Shown here in pieces: positions 1-9,432 of a stretch of DNA of 64,000 bases; within the stretch, counting starts at the first letter, position 1; each line of letters begins with the position of its first letter. The translations under genes and the position numbers were made by a program. The DNA is from Actibacterium lipolyticum (lineage in GTDB: Bacteria; Pseudomonadota; Alphaproteobacteria; Rhodobacterales; Rhodobacteraceae): the NCBI RefSeq assembly GCF_900184935.1, contig NZ_FXYE01000001.1, positions 310,001 to 374,000 of the forward strand. Direction: 5' to 3'. The notes beneath the pieces were generated by a model. That model did no database searches. It saw nothing but the letters and a program-made list of their open reading frames with translations, and had not been told where the DNA came from.

Positions 1-2
1 AC

Positions 3-383
3 GTTGACATCGTCTTCGAACACCCCGGCGAGGCGACGTTCCCGGTTTCGACATTCGTCTGTAAAAAGGGCGGCATGGTCGTGATCTGCGCGGGCACCAC
101 CGGCTTTAACTGTACGTTCGACGTTCGTTACATGTGGATGCACCAGAAGCGCCTTCAGGGCAGCCACTTTGCGCACCTGAAACAGGCTGCTGCTGCGAAC
201 CGTCTGATGATTGAGCGCCGGATTGACCCTTATATGTCCGAAGTGTTCCCATGGGATGAAATCCCCGCCGCGCACACGAAGATGCTGCGCAACGAGCACA
301 AGCCGGGCAACATGTCTGTTCTGGTTCAGGCCCCGCGCACTGGCCTGCGGACATTGGAAGACGCGCTTGAAGCTGCGAAGTAA
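3..383 (+). CDS. ccr: Crotonyl-CoA carboxylase/reductase, C-terminal part (cut by window edge)
   Basis: Only the last 126 residues are in the window; the reading frame is open from base 3. The visible part is the end of an MDR-type (zinc-less alcohol dehydrogenase-like) reductase: a GGMVVICAGTTG nucleotide-fold strand-loop, then RYMWMHQKRLQGSHFA, which is characteristic of crotonyl-CoA carboxylase/reductases. The enzyme reductively carboxylates crotonyl-CoA to ethylmalonyl-CoA with NADPH and CO2 and is the hallmark of the cytoplasmic ethylmalonyl-CoA pathway for acetyl-CoA assimilation. The assignment rests on recognised family sequence; the N-terminal half cannot be checked here. Confidence 0.9.
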   Translation, partial: VDIVFEHPGEATFPVSTFVCKKGGMVVICAGTTGFNCTFDVRYMWMHQKRLQGSHFAHLKQAAAANRLMIERRIDPYMSEVFPWDEIPAAHTKMLRNEHKPGNMSVLVQAPRTGLRTLEDALEAAK

Positions 384-385
384 AC

Positions 386-401
386 AACCGCTTTAGCGGT
401 T
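386..401. terminator. Short hairpin just after ccr
   Basis: A 6-bp perfect stem (386-391 with 396-401, loop TTTA) begins 3 bases after the ccr stop. It is followed by ATTAAAAG rather than a T-tract, so it is at best a weak terminator or a 3'-end stabilising hairpin. Confidence 0.3.
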
Positions 402-453
402 ATTAAAAGCCCCGCCCTGCTCAGCTGGCTCGTTCCGGGATTTGGGACATGAG

Positions 454-480
454 CACCCGGAAACAATTTGTTTCCGGGTG
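454..480 (+). terminator. Probable ccr terminator hairpin
   Basis: A perfect 11-bp inverted repeat (454-464 with 470-480, loop AATTT) lies 70 bases past the ccr stop and is followed by TTCATAGTTTTCC. The stem is strong but the T-tract is interrupted. It is the most likely transcription end for ccr. Confidence 0.5.
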
Positions 481-729
481 TTCATAGTTTTCCTTAGGGC
501 AAATTGGCTTTTGGGGTAGGCATCCGAAGTGCTATCGCAAACATGGTGGCAAGCGGTCGATTATGACCGAGTGCGTCAATCATGAGTTTTGTATGATGGC
601 GTATGCACGACCTTCGTATTGTGGGAAGGATATGTTGCGCCCATGGAAGGTTGTTGTGCATGCCCTTGCATCGGTTCGGACGAAGGCTTCCATGGGGGAT
701 TCAAGACCTGACGCGAAGGATTTTTTGAG

Positions 730-2211
730 ATGACAGCGGGATTACATCTACCGATCAAGGCTCTTGCGGCGATTGGGGCAATCCTATCGGCGACCTCTCT
801 CAGTGCCGATACATACTGCGTCCGGGATGTCGTTGGCGGCGAAGCGAAACTGCCCGTCGAAATCGAACAGCCATATCGCATTGCCAGCGATCCGATCACC
901 ATCCCTGGTTTTGATGGCTTGGTTTTCAAAGCAGTCAATCGTCATCAGCTCTACGAATACGACGGGTCGCGCTACAACCTGATCGAAAGCGACTTTCCAC
1001 ATGTCTGGGGCTTTGCCTTTGAGCATGGGATACATGTGAACCTGAATGGAAATGCCTATGGTTTCGGTTCCAAACCGAAGGTGATTTTCTACCATCAAGA
1101 TGGGACTTCATCATGGGAACCCATTGAAGCGACACGGGACTACTGGGACGCCTTCTTTGATCAGGGAGCGGGTGAGGCTTATTTTCGCACATCGAGGCGA
1201 GCCGACGCATGGAACCGTATCGTAGCGGGACGGGTGCAACCGCAAGAGCCATTGCCAATTTTCCATGGCGACATAACGAGGTCAGTCCGCACTGTCCCCG
1301 AAATTTCAGGCGCGTTCGCACTGACAGGTGGGCCGAGCCTGACCGTTCGACAATCAAGTTCGATCTGGTTTCGCGCCGATGGTGGCACATGGCGCAGAAT
1401 ACCGATGACCCTGCCAGACGGCGCGCGACTGTTCGACACGTTGCTGGATGCGGTGATCGAGGTCAGCGGCGATCTTGTCAGGATCTTCCCTGAGAACAAC
1501 GCCTTCAAGCCCCTGTTTTTCAAGCTGGCCGATGGTAATATGACGTTCGCAGGTTTCGCGCCGGCCGGGGACTGGACCCGTCATCCGGCAACCGGGGTCT
1601 GGTTCGGTTGGAGCGGTCCAGATGCCCAGACGAAGCGGGGTGTGGAAAGGATGCGGCCAAAGGCCTTCATGCTTGGCCCGGGGGAGGTCAGGGCCACACT
1701 TGTCGAAAACCTCGAACCACCCGTCTTGGACAAGGACTTCTACCTGCCCAAAACCGTGATGTTGAGTGGAGAGATGCCAGCTTTTCTCAGCGATAGCCAC
1801 GGATTTCTTGCATTCGACGGCTCGGGCTTCTCAAGACCGGCGGGCTTGAGCTACGAAAATCTCGGTGACCTTCCCCGCGTTCGATCACTGGGCGGAAAAC
1901 ATCTCAGCCAGTCCGAAAAGGGCGTTTTCGAGATAAAGGAAGACCTTTCCGTCGTCCGGTTCGACAATTTCCCCATCGTCCAGCCTTGGACGCATCTGGT
2001 CAGCATTGACTATGTCGACGCATGGGAGGTTTTCGTCATCGCGGACAAGGCTTCAGGCAAACTGTTCGCATCAAGCAACATGCAAGAGTTTGAGGTCATC
2101 CCCTCAACGGAGCCACTTCGGTCTATAATCTCCATCTTGGATGAACCGCCCTCGGTTTTGATTGGTGGGCAGGCTGGCCTCGTGTCAATGACCGATCGCT
2201 GCCCGCCATGA
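730..2211 (+). CDS. Secreted protein of unknown function, 493 aa
   Basis: I do not recognise a family. Residues 1-26 form a signal peptide with a hydrophobic core (KALAAIGAILSATSLSA) and an Ala-x-Ala-like end, so the mature protein should be periplasmic or exported. The remainder is rich in short alternating strands and aromatic or Gly turns (for example GFDGLVFKAVNRHQLYEYDG), suggesting a beta-propeller-like fold; this is inference. Cys30 near the mature N-terminus and Cys491 three residues from the C-terminus could close the propeller with a disulfide. The start is ATG; a purine-rich stretch lies upstream. The stop codon lies 4 bases before a candidate transposon end, so the original 3' end may have been altered by insertion. 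Confidence 0.6.
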   Translation: MTAGLHLPIKALAAIGAILSATSLSADTYCVRDVVGGEAKLPVEIEQPYRIASDPITIPGFDGLVFKAVNRHQLYEYDGSRYNLIESDFPHVWGFAFEHGIHVNLNGNAYGFGSKPKVIFYHQDGTSSWEPIEATRDYWDAFFDQGAGEAYFRTSRRADAWNRIVAGRVQPQEPLPIFHGDITRSVRTVPEISGAFALTGGPSLTVRQSSSIWFRADGGTWRRIPMTLPDGARLFDTLLDAVIEVSGDLVRIFPENNAFKPLFFKLADGNMTFAGFAPAGDWTRHPATGVWFGWSGPDAQTKRGVERMRPKAFMLGPGEVRATLVENLEPPVLDKDFYLPKTVMLSGEMPAFLSDSHGFLAFDGSGFSRPAGLSYENLGDLPRVRSLGGKHLSQSEKGVFEIKEDLSVVRFDNFPIVQPWTHLVSIDYVDAWEVFVIADKASGKLFASSNMQEFEVIPSTEPLRSIISILDEPPSVLIGGQAGLVSMTDRCPP

Positions 2212-2215
2212 TGTG

Positions 2216-2228
2216 GGGACTTTGTCCG
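2216..2228. repeat. Candidate left terminal inverted repeat of the transposase-like element
   Basis: GGGACTTTGTCCG here resembles, in inverse orientation and with one inserted T, the palindrome GGGACAAAAGTCCC at 4855-4868. The two flank the 788-aa transposase-like gene. The match is short (about 12 bases), the right copy is itself palindromic, and I found no flanking target duplication, so the call is tentative. Confidence 0.3.
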
Positions 2229-2370
2229 GGTTTGCTGGGGAGCGTTTGCCCCCTGACCGAACTTTTTGCTTAAGAGAGATGGGATTGATGTTCTTCAGTG
2301 AAGAAACCGCCTGATAGGGATATAAGAGTGGCGATAAATCTGGCGAGAGCGATATCCACTTGCGAGTGGT

Positions 2371-4737
2371 TCACCGGTTCTCGAACTTCCTCCATAACGG
2401 CGTTCCGTGGTAAAGCCATGGCCGGTAGAGAACCCGCCTCGGGTCAGGTGCCTTGCGCGGACGTCCGTTCGGTTTCTCCGGATCTGCCCCGAGCCGCATT
2501 GCTGGCGTGAGCATAACCGGCGCCGTCGTTGCCATTTTCGGGACCTCGAGTGACTCCTTGGTACCCGGGATGCGGATGGAGGACATCCCTGCTGGGACCG
2601 GAGACTCGCTTCCGGCGGCCGCTCCCGGCCCCTTGTATTGTCGTGCCTCGAACCAGTTGTAATAGACCCGAAAAATGTTGAGGAACGCCATTAGCACGGC
2701 AGGATTGAAGACCGCTCCATTGATGTATGCCGGACCAGTTCGTGCTCCCTTACCGCCGGCCCGTTTCGACGGGCTTGTGCGATGGCGCAGGGAACTCATG
2801 AAGGTCGATACGGGCTGAATGGTCGCTTTCAGGGCTCGTCGCGTCAGCGCTGCGCGAAGTTCAGGGTCATGGACCTTCTGGTCGAAAGCCAGCTTCTTCA
2901 AAGGGTCTCGATACTTCTTCCGAAGGACAGGAAACCCCACGACTTTCTGTGTCTCCCCAAAATACTGAGCCGGCGTCTTTATCCAGACCTGGGGGAACTG
3001 GCGAGACTGGAAGTTCGGGATCGCATGCGAGTATTTCGTGCCATTTCGTCCCTCGATGCATGCTGTTGACATCCGTTTGGTGCAATAGTGCTCTAAGAGT
3101 TCGCGATCCGAAATATCGTCTCCGAGCTTTGCCCGCGCCCTTTCCTTGAAGGCCTCCAAACCCTCAGTGAAACGGGCCATACGCTCCTTGCTTTTGGGTG
3201 CGGAGACTTCTTTGTCGAAGGAGATCACGAACCACTCGAACATGTCTTCGTTGATCATGTCGCGGAATACGTGTGGCACGACGCGAACCATCGTCGCTTC
3301 CTGCTCACCGACCAGGGTAATCTTGCCCTTGGGCAGCATATCCCGGAGGCAGGCAAGATGCGCCGCCTTGGTGTATGTCGGCTTCACAACGCTCCCATTG
3401 AAGCTGCCCCGAAAGTCGCGATCCGTGTCGTGGAAGCCGAAATACCCCTGCCGGATCTGGTCCAGCTGATATCTCTTGTCGTCGGCTTCAGCGATCTTTT
3501 CCTGGGCCTCAGGAGGAAGGGCGAAGCCGGCATTCACGGTCTTTTCGTATGCATTCTGCACACGCTCGGAGAACACCCTCCAGCGGCCTTCCGCGCTGGC
3601 GAATAGCATGGCCTCATCGAGCCGTCCGCTGGGGCGCTGGAATTGCATCTTGGGTGCGGTGAAGGTGACTCCCGATTTCTGGGAGTAATGTTGCCGGAGG
3701 TTCGTGGGCTGGCCTGTGTCGTCGAGATAGTGCTCTTGGATGAACTCCACGGGATCGACATTCGGGTCGAAGTTTGCGTCGATCCGGAAGACATATCCGC
3801 TCCGAATGTCGGCGGAGACCGAAAACTGAAGGGGCGTCAGCCGTCGATCGAAGCGGCTTTCCCAGTTGACCGAGATCGTGACGTCGTCGAGGGCGATCCG
3901 CATGTGGCTGAAGCGATCGGACGCCTCTACTCGCTGCTTCCATTCCTTTAGCTTTGCGCGCTCGAAGGCGAGCAAGGTCTTCTCCAACCAGAAGACTCGG
4001 CTGTAGAGGCGGCTCACGCCGATCTGCTTTCCGGTGTCGGGGTCAGCCAGAACACGGCGCATGGTCGTGATGCTGTCTCCGTTGACGATGCATCTTAGGA
4101 TGCGGACGTTGTCGCGCAACTCCTTCTGGGCTTGGTGATCCAGCGATACCGAGAGCCTCGCACCAGGCTTGCCTTTGCAGGGGCGGTGGATGATCCGGAA
4201 CCCTGATGGTTTTGCCTTTCGGCGATTGCCACCTGGTGCCAGCTTCCCGTGCGTGCCGTTGAAGATGAACTCGTCGGGGTTCTCAAGATACCGCGCACCG
4301 CACGCGCCGCAAACAGGACCTTCAAGGCAGCCGCCAGCTAAGAGCAGCCGGTAATACTCTTCCAGGAAATGCTCGTTCGACAGGACCGCGAAGCTGATGT
4401 TGCAGATGCTGTTGCCGCGCTGATGACCGCACTCCATGGAGCGACCATCATCCCATCCAACCGGATCGCCGGCGTATTCGAAGACCTCCGAGATACGGGG
4501 ATGATGATCATCGCTCGACATGGTGTAGGAGCCGAGCCCGGTCGTCAGGGCCGGGATGCTCGCCGCGGCCGCCTGTTTGCGTTGCGCAGCGTTTTTTCCC
4601 TTGAACACCGGGATAGTGAAGTCCGGCGCAACGCCGAAGTTGCCGCAGTCCGGGTCACCGCAGGTATTGAGGTTGAAATCTGCCAGAACGGCAGGGTAAA
4701 CTTGAGAAAGGTTCATATGCTGGAGCGTCTTGACCAT
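2371..4737 (-). CDS. Large zinc-finger DDE-like transposase, 788 aa (putative IS1-type relative)
   Basis: The N-terminus has a zinc-binding pair, CGDPDCGNFG (Cys26/Cys31), and a second cluster GPVCGACG (Cys143/Cys146) with Cys187 further on. A helix-turn-helix-like segment follows (about 210-255). Residues 278-325 look like the first strands of an RNase-H fold (IALDDVTISVNW, then FSVSADIRSGYVFRIDANF). A second acidic patch (LVGEQEATM, about 475-482) and a C-terminal block with FLNIFRVYYNWFEARQY (about 684-700) resemble the tail of IS1-like transposases. The start chosen is ATG at 4737 with GGAG 6 bases upstream; the frame is open further to a TTG at 4827. It is a solitary gene on the opposite strand to its neighbours and far longer than a usual IS1 transposase (about 230 aa). 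The catalytic triad is my inference. An alternative is a domesticated DNA-binding protein. Confidence 0.55.
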   Translation of the reverse strand: MVKTLQHMNLSQVYPAVLADFNLNTCGDPDCGNFGVAPDFTIPVFKGKNAAQRKQAAAASIPALTTGLGSYTMSSDDHHPRISEVFEYAGDPVGWDDGRSMECGHQRGNSICNISFAVLSNEHFLEEYYRLLLAGGCLEGPVCGACGARYLENPDEFIFNGTHGKLAPGGNRRKAKPSGFRIIHRPCKGKPGARLSVSLDHQAQKELRDNVRILRCIVNGDSITTMRRVLADPDTGKQIGVSRLYSRVFWLEKTLLAFERAKLKEWKQRVEASDRFSHMRIALDDVTISVNWESRFDRRLTPLQFSVSADIRSGYVFRIDANFDPNVDPVEFIQEHYLDDTGQPTNLRQHYSQKSGVTFTAPKMQFQRPSGRLDEAMLFASAEGRWRVFSERVQNAYEKTVNAGFALPPEAQEKIAEADDKRYQLDQIRQGYFGFHDTDRDFRGSFNGSVVKPTYTKAAHLACLRDMLPKGKITLVGEQEATMVRVVPHVFRDMINEDMFEWFVISFDKEVSAPKSKERMARFTEGLEAFKERARAKLGDDISDRELLEHYCTKRMSTACIEGRNGTKYSHAIPNFQSRQFPQVWIKTPAQYFGETQKVVGFPVLRKKYRDPLKKLAFDQKVHDPELRAALTRRALKATIQPVSTFMSSLRHRTSPSKRAGGKGARTGPAYINGAVFNPAVLMAFLNIFRVYYNWFEARQYKGPGAAAGSESPVPAGMSSIRIPGTKESLEVPKMATTAPVMLTPAMRLGADPEKPNGRPRKAPDPRRVLYRPWLYHGTPLWRKFENR

Positions 4738-4854
4738 TCGATCTCCGATCTTTCGGTATTGATGTGTCAAGAATGCCTCCGGGACCGAATGGGATGTTCG
4801 CCGTTTTGCCCGACAACGAAATCCCAAAACGATTTTTCTGCTTACTGTTGCGTC

Positions 4855-4868
4855 GGGACAAAAGTCCC
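4855..4868. repeat. Candidate right terminal repeat, palindrome GGGACAAAAGTCCC
   Basis: A perfect 5-bp stem palindrome around AAAA lies about 118 bases upstream of the transposase-like start codon. Its inverse matches the sequence at 2216-2228 except for one base of spacing, so the pair could be the ends of a roughly 2.65-kb element. Confidence 0.3.
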
Positions 4869-4970
4869 GCAGCTCGTGTAAACGGCCCTGGAAAATATGC
4901 TCGCAAAATCAAACGGCTACCGAGGATTTTCTCGATAGCCGCTGCAGTTGTGTCCCAAAAGCCGGAACTA

Positions 4971-4989
4971 GCCACTGCTCAGCAGTGGC
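4971..4989 (+). terminator. Hairpin followed by a T-rich tail
   Basis: An 8-bp perfect stem (4971-4978 GCCACTGC with 4982-4989, loop TCA) is followed by GGGGCTTTGCTTTTC. In the plus direction it resembles a terminator, although no plus-strand gene ends nearby. It may be left from the pre-insertion arrangement. Confidence 0.35.
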
Positions 4990-5134
4990 GGGGCTTTGCT
5001 TTTCTGGGTTCGAAACGGCGCTGATGTTAGATCGGTCCGCTTGCCCGTCGGCGACCCAGAAAACCGGCGCTTGGCAAGGTTATGTCAACACGTCACTGTC
5101 AGCCTCATTAGATATCGCCTTTGGAGTGCAGCAT

Positions 5135-5674
5135 TTGAGAAAACTAATTTTTGTCCTGTTCAGCTTGATGGCAGGGCCGGCCTTCGCGGATGGGTTTTGG
5201 GAATACGGCTCGTGGCGCGTATTCGTGCAAGAGGTAGACACCGGAGAGGATCTGCGCAGATCTTGCAGCGCGATGACCGGCGGTGACGGCGAACCAAGCG
5301 TTGTCGTTTCGATGAGCAATGGCGATGCCGGGCCACCCGACTTCTTCCCTTCGGTTCTGGTCCGCGAGCACGCTCCAAGGGGCCACCGAACCATGCTGCA
5401 AGACGGCCAAGCCGCCTACATCCGGTTTGATAACGAGGATGTCATGGATGGCGTGGTTAAGGGTGATTTCGATGAAGAAGGCTTTGCCTATGCAGAAATA
5501 GCCTTCGATCATCCGCTTAGCCAATGGGTCCTGCGTGCGATGCGGGTAAACGGCCAATTTGATGTGGTCGTCGATGACAAGGTTTTCATGTACGCCTATT
5601 TGGATGGCTTTACGGCCTCGTATCTGAAAATGGCCGAGGAATGCGGGTTCAATGGCGCAGGTGTCGTTGATTAG
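5135..5674 (+). CDS. Secreted protein of unknown function, 179 aa
   Basis: A TTG start at 5135 is chosen because GGAG sits 8 bases upstream and translation then begins directly with a signal peptide (LRKLIFVLFSLMAGPAFA, cleavage after about residue 18). Longer in-frame starts upstream would bury this signal. The mature part is acidic, about 160 aa, with two Cys residues (RRSCSAM near the start and EECGFNG near the end) that could form a disulfide. No family is recognised. It and the 493-aa secreted protein at 730-2211 lie on the same strand on either side of the transposase-like gene. Confidence 0.65.
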   Translation: MRKLIFVLFSLMAGPAFADGFWEYGSWRVFVQEVDTGEDLRRSCSAMTGGDGEPSVVVSMSNGDAGPPDFFPSVLVREHAPRGHRTMLQDGQAAYIRFDNEDVMDGVVKGDFDEEGFAYAEIAFDHPLSQWVLRAMRVNGQFDVVVDDKVFMYAYLDGFTASYLKMAEECGFNGAGVVD

Positions 5675-5889
5675 CGCGGGACACTTTGGCATGCACAAGA
5701 GGGGGGACTCCTAAGGCCCGGCCACTGTGTTGATCAATCGAACTGGCCAGCTTCAACCCGCAGCGCAAAGTAATCTGATGTTCACCAGCAGACCCTAATT
5801 TTCGAGAAAACACAAAAGGGTATGCAAATGTGGATTTCTCGGTATGGTTGAATCTGCATACAAAACAATCACGCATGAGATGTTTTTCT

Positions 5890-6084
5890 ATGGCAGATGA
5901 GTGGATAATCGAGGTGCTATCTGACTTGCGCAATTTTGCGCAAAACAACGGCCTTCCGCATTTGGCGAGTGAGCTGGAAAACACAGTCGCCGTCGCCAGC
6001 CAAGAGCTTTGTACTGGTGTTGGTGCCGGCGCTGCGGCTGGCGGCGGGGCTGGGCAACACACAAAGCACCACAAGAAGATGTAA
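5890..6084 (+). CDS. Small protein, 64 aa, Gly/Ala/His-rich tail
   Basis: The ATG at 5890 gives MADEWIIEVLSDLRNFAQNN, an amphipathic helical N-terminal half (about residues 1-40). A low-complexity tail of Gly/Ala (GVGAGAAAGGGAG) follows, then basic QHTKHHKKM. The start is supported by the protein-like sequence from this point; the longer frame from 5830 lacks such character and only a weak GAG precedes 5890. It lies 51 bases before the RecD-like helicase on the same strand and may be co-transcribed. I believe similar small proteins occur in related bacteria but cannot verify this. The His/Lys tail could bind metal or nucleic acid; that is speculation. Confidence 0.55.
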   Translation: MADEWIIEVLSDLRNFAQNNGLPHLASELENTVAVASQELCTGVGAGAAAGGGAGQHTKHHKKM

Positions 6085-7753: not shown

Positions 7754-8518
7754 CTATCCGCGGATGTAACGGAACACGGCGGACGCCGCCCAGCCTGCCG
7801 TAATCGCGATGATCAACGACAGAATGCCGTAAATCAGCGGCTGTTCGTGCGCGAGGTTGAAGGCCCAGCGTTCAAACCCGACCATGGTGACATCCAGTGT
7901 CGTTTCGTAGGTATCAATCACCTTGCCGTCCCGTGTCAGGAAAATGCGCGTCGCATAAAGGCCTTCGGTCAAGTTCGCGGGCAGGGCGATTGCACTTCGA
8001 AATAGGGTATCCTCTGACAGGATCACGCCGCTTTCGTTCATCACGTAACGGCCGGTGTTTTCGCGCACACGAATAAGAGCTTCGGTAAAGGCTTCGGCGT
8101 CGGGCACATCCTTGGGCGCACCAACCGATCGGATCATTTGCGGGATCGTAACCTTGTGGCGCAGATCTTCGGTATGGGAAAGCACCTCGCCCATCGGGGC
8201 GGTGGTCGCGATGGCATAAAAGCTGGCTGCGGAATCGACCTCTACGGATGATGTGTTCACCCAAATGCCAAAGCGGCGGCTTTTACGGCGCACGACGACG
8301 GGTTCATGCGGGCCAGAAACCGTGACGATCACCTGCAAAGGCGACCCTTCGGGGATCGGAGAGTTACGTTTTACCGCTCCGAACACCAAAATCTCGGACC
8401 CGGCAAAATCGGCGGTGATGGCAACGCGGGCTTGACTTAGGCCAGCGACAACCTCTTCCTCGGCCTGGGCGGCAAACGGAAGGACAAGCGTGAACAGCAG
8501 GGCAATCAGCGCGCGCAT
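7754..8518 (-). CDS. TIGR02186 family membrane-anchored periplasmic protein, 254 aa
   Basis: This matches the alphaproteobacterial TIGR02186 family, usually encoded with a TauE/SafE permease as here. It has a signal peptide (RALIALLFTLVLPFAAQA), a periplasmic beta-rich body (including VSGPHEPVVVRRKSRRFGIWVN) and one C-terminal membrane helix (IYGILSLIIAITAGWAASAVF). ATG at 8518 overlaps the permease stop as TGATG, so the pair is translationally coupled; a GTG one codon earlier is also possible. The biochemical role is unknown. Linkage suggests it assists anion or organosulfur transport by the permease. Confidence 0.85.
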   Translation of the reverse strand: MRALIALLFTLVLPFAAQAEEEVVAGLSQARVAITADFAGSEILVFGAVKRNSPIPEGSPLQVIVTVSGPHEPVVVRRKSRRFGIWVNTSSVEVDSAASFYAIATTAPMGEVLSHTEDLRHKVTIPQMIRSVGAPKDVPDAEAFTEALIRVRENTGRYVMNESGVILSEDTLFRSAIALPANLTEGLYATRIFLTRDGKVIDTYETTLDVTMVGFERWAFNLAHEQPLIYGILSLIIAITAGWAASAVFRYIRG

Positions 8519-9432
8519 CACAGACGACCCCGCGTGATCGAATAAAGCTCGTTCGGTTCCAGCAGTAGATCAAGGGCGAGCTTAACGCAGACGGCGATAA
8601 CGATGACGGCCAGCAAAATCCGCAACTGTTCAGCCCGCAGTTTCAAACCGATCTGCGTTCCGATTTGCGCGCCGACCACACCGCCCAAAATCAAGATCGC
8701 CGCAAGCGCCATATCGACCGTGTAATTGGTGACCGCGTGCATCAAAGTGGTGAACCCGGTAACAAAGATGATCTGGAACAGCGACGTTCCCACGACCACT
8801 TTCGTCGGCATGTTCAGCAGATAAATCATGGCCGGAACCATGATAAAGCCACCGCCAACGCCCATAATTGCGGCCAGAACCCCGACCGAGGCACCGACCA
8901 AAATCGGCGGAATGATGGAAATATAAAGCCCCGAGGTGCGGAATTTCATTTTAAGGGGCAGGGCATCCACCCACCCGCGATGCCGCCGTTTGGGAACCAC
9001 GCCTTTGCGTTTCGACCGTTGCAACGCACGCAGGCTTTCGATCAGCATCAGCGTGCCGACGATACCCAGAAACACCACGTAACAAAGGGTAACCAGCAGA
9101 TCGACCTGCCCAAGCTTTGACAGCAGGTTAAAGATCCAAATCCCGACGCCCGACCCCATAAGCCCGCCAATCAAAAGGACGGTGCCCATCTTAAGGTCTA
9201 CGGTTTTCCGCCTAAGATGCGCCAGCACCCCCGAAACAGAGGACGCGACGATTTGGTTCGCGCCTGTCGCGACGGCCACCGCCGGGGGTACGCCGATGAA
9301 GAACAGCAAAGGGGTGATCAGAAACCCACCGCCGACCCCAAACATACCGGACAAGATGCCGACCAACCCGCCCAGCCCCAACAGGAGGAACAGGTTGACC
9401 GATACTTCGGCGATAGGGAGGTAGATTTGCAT
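8518..9432 (-). CDS. TauE/SafE family permease (putative sulfite/anion exporter), 304 aa
   Basis: A polytopic inner-membrane protein with the two glycine-rich repeats typical of the TauE/SafE (DUF81) family: GGLVGILSGMFGVGGGFLI near the N-terminus and VGVLAAIMGVGGGFIMVPA in the second half. About eight membrane helices are visible, separated by a basic loop (RSKRKGVVPKRRHRG). Family members export sulfite, sulfoacetate or related anions, but the substrate cannot be told here. It is followed with a 1-base overlap by TIGR02186. The ABC permease upstream ends 53 bp away, with no obvious promoter in between. Confidence 0.85.
   Translation of the reverse strand: MQIYLPIAEVSVNLFLLLGLGGLVGILSGMFGVGGGFLITPLLFFIGVPPAVAVATGANQIVASSVSGVLAHLRRKTVDLKMGTVLLIGGLMGSGVGIWIFNLLSKLGQVDLLVTLCYVVFLGIVGTLMLIESLRALQRSKRKGVVPKRRHRGWVDALPLKMKFRTSGLYISIIPPILVGASVGVLAAIMGVGGGFIMVPAMIYLLNMPTKVVVGTSLFQIIFVTGFTTLMHAVTNYTVDMALAAILILGGVVGAQIGTQIGLKLRAEQLRILLAVIVIAVCVKLALDLLLEPNELYSITRGRL

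Follow-up and report, generated by a model that had tools for sequence, protein, structure and literature searches.

A terminator is a harmless landing place for a mobile element, and one that is present in nearly every bacterium. Group IIC introns insert next to intrinsic terminators; they are RNA-based retroelements and have neither inverted repeats nor target duplications. IS1272 and TnSha1 of the IS1182 family, too, are described as inserting into hairpins, of which many are confirmed terminators, and show no primary sequence preference; TnSha1 in addition carries a passenger resistance gene, according to the accessible portions of the two reports (PMC4923244, PMC5678879). In Tn916, a tested terminator near one end shields the element from host transcription, to the benefit of the host, as the available part of that study states (PMC11658703). 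Tn7491, of 3.3 kb, with the repeat TAAGTAGTTCAGTTTTGGAGTACAAAA, a 9-bp duplication and evidence of movement, was originally noticed within Tn6198 of Listeria monocytogenes. Its second copy has convergent genes on its two sides; neither "terminator" nor "hairpin" is used in the main text of the paper, which is the part of it considered here (PMC10763498).

The locus analysed here lies in a window of 64,000 nucleotides from Actibacterium lipolyticum (Rhodobacteraceae; contig NZ_FXYE01000001.1, positions 310,001 to 374,000), and coordinates are those of the window unless another locus is named. We think it very probable that it holds a transposon of the DDE type, distantly IS1-like and from a family not described before, which inserts selectively into the loops of intrinsic (rho-independent) terminators.

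The element, its transposase and its family

The whole transposon measures 4,549 bp (426..4974, on the minus strand in transposase orientation) and is delimited by inverted repeats and a 9-bp duplication. The terminal inverted repeats are of 24 nt, the left one on the 5' or transposase side (4951..4974, minus strand) and the right one 3' of the transposase (426..449, plus strand), and the target duplication CTGCTCAGC is found at 417..425 and again at 4975..4983. The transposase gene, with its Cys clusters and helix-turn-helix (HTH) region, runs from an ATG at 4737 to a stop at 2371 on the minus strand and encodes 788 aa, or 818 aa if started from an upstream TTG. Between it and the right end lies a passenger gene for a possible secreted protein of 493 aa (730..2211, plus strand). 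The sequence-only reading of this DNA had recognised the 788-aa frame, which is real and lies on the minus strand, and had seen no target duplication. The ends that it proposed, 2216-2228 and 4855-4868, are both internal, the first falling in the passenger segment and the second in the body common to the related copy L002; its description of the gene as alone between two secreted proteins was misleading, as the left-hand one belongs to the element.

With up to three mismatches allowed, the 24-nt end sequence occurs in exactly two places, inverted, in the whole 3.9-Mb assembly, compared with none for a control pattern. The transposase ORF is single-copy in this genome, and no solo ends or short non-autonomous copies were detected in it beyond the element's own two ends. 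Relatives occupy seven loci in the genome collection, and the nearest have 94–97% protein identity and come from a Rhodobacteraceae MAG and from Roseovarius dicentrarchi; near-identical copies with the same ends, which the sequence-only reading had proposed to look for, do exist in other genomes. The L002 element is 93% identical in DNA by pairwise alignment and ends at 5764-5787 and 8484-8507 with the same 24-nt inverted repeat. What the two copies have in common starts from 4975, and on the other side it breaks off at the transposase stop (2373) and resumes at 405-475. The same ends are found in L002 and in the split copy L005/L006, with different 9-bp duplications (GAGCGATCG and GCGCAATGC) and different surroundings. 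Such a pattern is what a transposon leaves when it moves, and we infer that the A. lipolyticum copy has moved too. Just past the right end of the L002 element, at 8583-8776 of that locus, GC-rich near-palindromes (CCCGGGTCNNGCCCGGG) recur about every 50 bp.

Within the same family, 22 of the 394 genomes contain homologues, many of which are broken by stops or lie in scattered pieces. By profile search, matches came from 39 of the 390 genomes searched in the order and from 20 of 398 in the phylum, both counts including A. lipolyticum itself and the latter including eight genomes of a Vibrio-like genus in which the gene is not mobile. Around each homologue, inverted repeats with an 8–10 bp duplication were searched for, hairpins being ignored; 25 matches stood above a gap in the score (at least 52 versus at most 44), 22 of them distinct. 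These 22 bounded elements form two clades, the first with transposases of about 780 aa and repeats like TGACGCATTCCG, the second with about 590 aa and repeats like CCAGCCCCTT, which includes plasmid copies, for example in Pseudomonas aeruginosa. The third clade, a distant one, consists of the protein adjoining dfrG in enterococci, staphylococci and Listeria, that is, Tn7491. Its protein matches the family profile at positions 24-650 and is 26% identical to the relative at L039 over 93% of the length (E 2e-37). The L039 protein matches 131 plasmid records, 90 of them from Enterococcus, and ten Tn7491 copies chosen for variety were examined, nine from those plasmid records and one from a phage. 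Tn7491, a distant relative of the A. lipolyticum element, is the transposon that spreads the trimethoprim-resistance gene dfrG among staphylococci and enterococci. Scanning of phages with the L039 protein gave two Staphylococcus phages; no relatives were found in the viral contigs scanned, nor in phages with the A. lipolyticum transposase. A strict inverted-repeat pattern retrieved no non-autonomous copies in 149 genomes of the family, which says little because most true copies deviate from that pattern. The suggestion that this could be a little-described transposase family is well borne out by the copies that other genomes have, which share its ends and lie between other duplications.

In the transposase, Cys26, Cys31, Cys103, Cys112, Cys187, Asp284 and Asn291 are invariant among 34 homologues outside the Vibrio type, and Cys143, Asp324, His460 and Lys509 are kept in 33 of them; the zinc-binding clusters read earlier around Cys26/31 and Cys143/187 agree with this conservation. 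Position 478 is always acidic (22 D, 12 E), and of the 30 homologues that have a residue at position 595, 26 have E. We think that the protein has a putative DDE core with D284, E478 and E595 as candidates, the third of which is not kept in the aligned Tn7491 protein. The AlphaFold model (11 alignment rows) has a mean pLDDT of 35 and does not confirm the RNase-H fold that had been read; because the model is unreliable, the catalytic residues stay predictions. Against the A. lipolyticum transposase, Pfam and NCBIfam returned no family and no transposase model at E up to 1, the PHROG scan one match at chance level (E 0.14), and a sequence search of the PDB chance-level matches only.

Some relatives approach IS1 more closely. 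The IS1 transposase model NF033558, with a cut-off of 100 bits, gives 25.9–33.1 bits (E 8e-6 to 5e-8) for the Tn7491, L039 and Vibrio-type proteins; no family member tested reaches the cut-off, and the A. lipolyticum transposase has no match. The models Zn_ribbon_InsA and IS1_IS1595_Zn match weakly, in relatives only and below their cut-offs, and two proteins of 308–350 aa that match the IS1 model are weakly collinear with the family at the zinc/HTH part and in the C-terminal tail. Both the zinc/HTH region and the IS1-like tail of the sequence-only reading find some weak resemblance in IS1-like proteins, and 9-bp duplications are typical of IS1. The differences are that the protein has 788 aa as against about 230 aa, that the ends are unrelated and that the InsA/InsB frameshift arrangement was not seen. 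A distant kinship with IS1 may exist, and we do not place the element in the IS1 family.

Ten homologues of the Vibrionaceae type, of about 490 aa (L109 3959-5449, L110 3983-5452, and L075-L082), form one branch with an SH-aLRT of 100 in a quick tree, in which the branch is long. The same gene lies upstream at all ten loci, identified as deoD in the two tested, and the end search at eight of the ten gave nothing above background. Their cysteines are kept in 10/10; position 478 is Pro in 10/10, none of them has Asp at position 324, and the seven whose residue 284 was read have E, K or A there. This clade is probably a domesticated transposase that has lost its putative catalytic residues. The earlier idea of a domesticated relative therefore suits this branch of the family and not the A. 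lipolyticum copy.

Passenger genes

More than 300 bp separate the transposase match from the right end in 11 of the 22 bounded elements, although in L016 and L068 the transposase match itself is truncated. Among the ORFs found 3' of the transposase are matches to Abi_C (E 2e-7), HEPN_RiboL-PSP (E 7e-6, just below the cut-off), DUF6338 and, weakly, a hydrolase. The Abi_C and HEPN-like domains belong to passengers of L053 and L016, which suggests that some elements may carry defence-like genes; a defence library gave no matches to five passengers.

The 493-aa protein has no family match, and a different origin can be thought of for its gene, namely a later foreign insertion between the transposase and the right end. 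The L002 element is shorter, has no such gene and ceases to be homologous exactly at the transposase stop; a relative of the gene is present in just 2 of 248 genomes of the family, A. lipolyticum included, and in the other, G056, the homologues have no clear inverted repeats of the family beside them. Half of the bounded elements nevertheless have room for a gene at this position, and it is here, 3' of the transposase, that Tn7491 has its dfrG, so that we regard a foreign insertion as possible though somewhat doubtful. The homologues in G056 (L143-L149) are several, fragmentary and on short contigs, some of them with stops.

Terminator loops as probable targets and terminator-like hairpins at the ends

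The A. lipolyticum element has inserted into the loop of a hairpin just after ccr, the gene of crotonyl-CoA carboxylase/reductase, whose C-terminal part occupies 3..383 (plus strand; TIGR01751, E 5e-54). The hairpin is split by the element, the left half of the ccr terminator, AAAAGCCCCGCC, being at 405..416 and the right half, GGCGGGGCTTTGCTTTT, at 4987..5003, both on the plus strand. The DNA after ccr is free of the element in 29 relatives, this being the homologous place and not the identical site, and many of these stretches have by eye an obvious stem and T-tract. An empty allele of the same site was not found, as the right flank is absent from the one other genome of the genus. An Rfam scan of positions 1-6000 gave no match.

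For a wider comparison 33 insertions were assembled, formed by the 22 distinct elements, L005/L006, the plasmid copies L098 and L099, and eight Tn7491 sites, their ends and duplications having been located without reference to hairpins. The set leaves out L097 and L108 (Tn7491 copies at one site, with no target duplication and apparently rearranged), L007 and L036 (decayed ends), loci of which a single end was within reach, including L003, L010, L011, L017, L018, L020, L024 and L025, and repeats of the same locus. When the flanks are rejoined, a recurrent picture appears, consisting of A-tract, stem, loop, stem and T-tract with the duplication in the loop, as in the Listeria copy of Tn7491 (L101), which reads AAAAAAAAGACCCGTCTAGTTTTAGACGAGTCTTTTTTTT. 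When 3,300 positions drawn at random from the same flanks serve as controls, 24 of the 33 sites have an axis-restricted stem score no lower than the 99th percentile. The hairpin axis lies within 1.5 bp of the centre of the duplication in 22 of these 24, as against 27% of control hairpins. By clade the hairpin targets number 9/11, 10/14 and 5/8, terminator loops being the targets at five of the eight Tn7491 sites examined. The nine sites without a strong hairpin are L013, L015, L068, L088, L098, L099, L100, L102 and L103; in some of them the stem is weak or imperfect, and neither L098 nor L099 resembles a terminator.

The strong sites are all hairpins and no primary sequence is common to the target sites, which would also be expected if any strong palindrome were targeted, as by IS1272 and REP-targeting elements, terminators being merely the commonest. 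What speaks against this is the sequence beside the stems: an A- or T-tract borders 21 of the 24 target hairpins and 22 of the 128 equally strong hairpins found elsewhere in this DNA (Fisher p 4e-11), with a hairpin cut-off of 24 that was set from the 33-site test and used again in the intergenic control below. The 128 may themselves include terminators, which would work against the difference seen. The tracts could also ease the extrusion of a hairpin, which leaves room for an enzyme that reads structure, and we consider targeting of palindromes in general unlikely, though it deserves serious consideration. Judged from these sites, the target is an intrinsic terminator and not merely a palindrome.

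The element brings hairpins of its own. Just inside its inverted repeats are two inward-facing, terminator-like hairpins with T-rich tails, at the left end (4912..4943, minus strand) and at the right end (449..485, plus strand). Among 26 elements, one Tn7491 copy included, a hairpin in this position is above the 95th shuffle percentile in 24 on the left and 22 on the right, and above the 99th in 21 and 19, respectively. In the 44 hairpins with a score of at least 20, the tail side, which faces inward, has 5.7 T per 10 bases, compared with 3.0 on the outward side and 2.7 from composition. The 14-pair stem of the left end forms in 94.9% of cells over seven relatives, and four of its pairs are changed on both sides, with a covariation score higher than in all 500 shuffles; covariation among seven related sequences is supportive and not proof. 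An independent terminator scan of the window has 449-485 (plus strand) and 4943-4912 (minus strand) as its first two rows, with by far the longest stems, its total of seven being not above that of shuffles (mean 5.5).

Nearly all elements have these hairpins right beside their inverted repeats, a place in which one would expect subterminal binding sites, and they might then be structures for transposase binding or regulation and not terminators. Their sequences differ widely between elements, whereas the stem and the inward T-tail are kept, and we find this alternative rather improbable. We favour end hairpins that would act as terminators on incoming host transcripts: with one facing inward at each end, a host transcript that passes the split terminator would meet a new one whichever end it entered.

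Proposed mechanism and comparison with known systems

That any intergenic DNA is accepted, and that selection purges the harmful insertions and leaves those near terminators, which are intergenic and where insertions are tolerated, is very improbable, given that such a hairpin occurs at only 37 of 2,793 intergenic positions of the window, or 0.36% once the axis condition is added, while the corresponding counts for the 33 sites are 24 and 22.

Insertion into terminator loops could proceed as follows. The zinc domains and the helix-turn-helix would bind the ends of the element, and an RNase-H-like core with D284, E478 and E595 as candidate residues would carry out strand transfers 9–10 bp apart, symmetrically about the hairpin axis. 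The target may be recognised as an extruded DNA hairpin or by way of the terminating transcription complex, cues that are proposed because no primary sequence is common to the sites. Insertion would split the host terminator, and the terminators of the element would stop host transcripts from either side, which could limit the damage to the host and keep outside transcription off the transposase gene. The balance is about even, in our opinion, for a broader reading in which a superfamily extending over Alpha-, Beta- and Gammaproteobacteria and Firmicutes would read the shape of the terminator or the stalled transcription complex, join symmetrically about its axis and swap in terminators of its own, making the insertion silent; the same targeting would steer dfrG as it spreads, and the Vibrionaceae version of the transposase would have been tamed to a host DNA- or terminator-binding protein beside deoD. 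A structure-finding transposase that keeps both halves of its target and supplies replacement terminators would, if this is true, be a new way for a parasite to spare its host, and the choice of target by Tn7491, with its dfrG, would be predictable from the genome sequence. It also raises the question of whether the enzyme sees a DNA hairpin or the terminating RNA polymerase.

In the literature covered, which included few subscription journals and excluded preprints, nothing was found to say that this family or Tn7491 targets terminators. Hairpin targeting as such is already known from IS1272, there without a target duplication. IS1272 and TnSha1 bluntly replace part of the stem and make no target duplication, as far as the accessible portions of the reports go (PMC4923244, PMC5678879), whereas the present family keeps both half-stems and duplicates 9–10 bp; unlike the IS1182 family, moreover, the A. 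lipolyticum transposase matches no transposase model of Pfam or NCBIfam (E up to 1). Tn916 differs in being an integrative conjugative element with an unrelated integration enzyme, and it is not terminator-targeted as far as the available text states (PMC11658703). MITEAba12 is unrelated according to the portion of its description at hand (PMC6382973). Among the closest described systems is Tn7491, whose protein is very divergent and of about 600–650 aa, whose repeat sequence is unrelated, whose hosts are Firmicutes and which has an extra ORF of 98 aa, with no family match, upstream of the transposase. It resembles the A. lipolyticum element in its homologous transposase, its inverted repeats, its 9-bp duplication, its one passenger 3' of the transposase and its terminator-loop targets.
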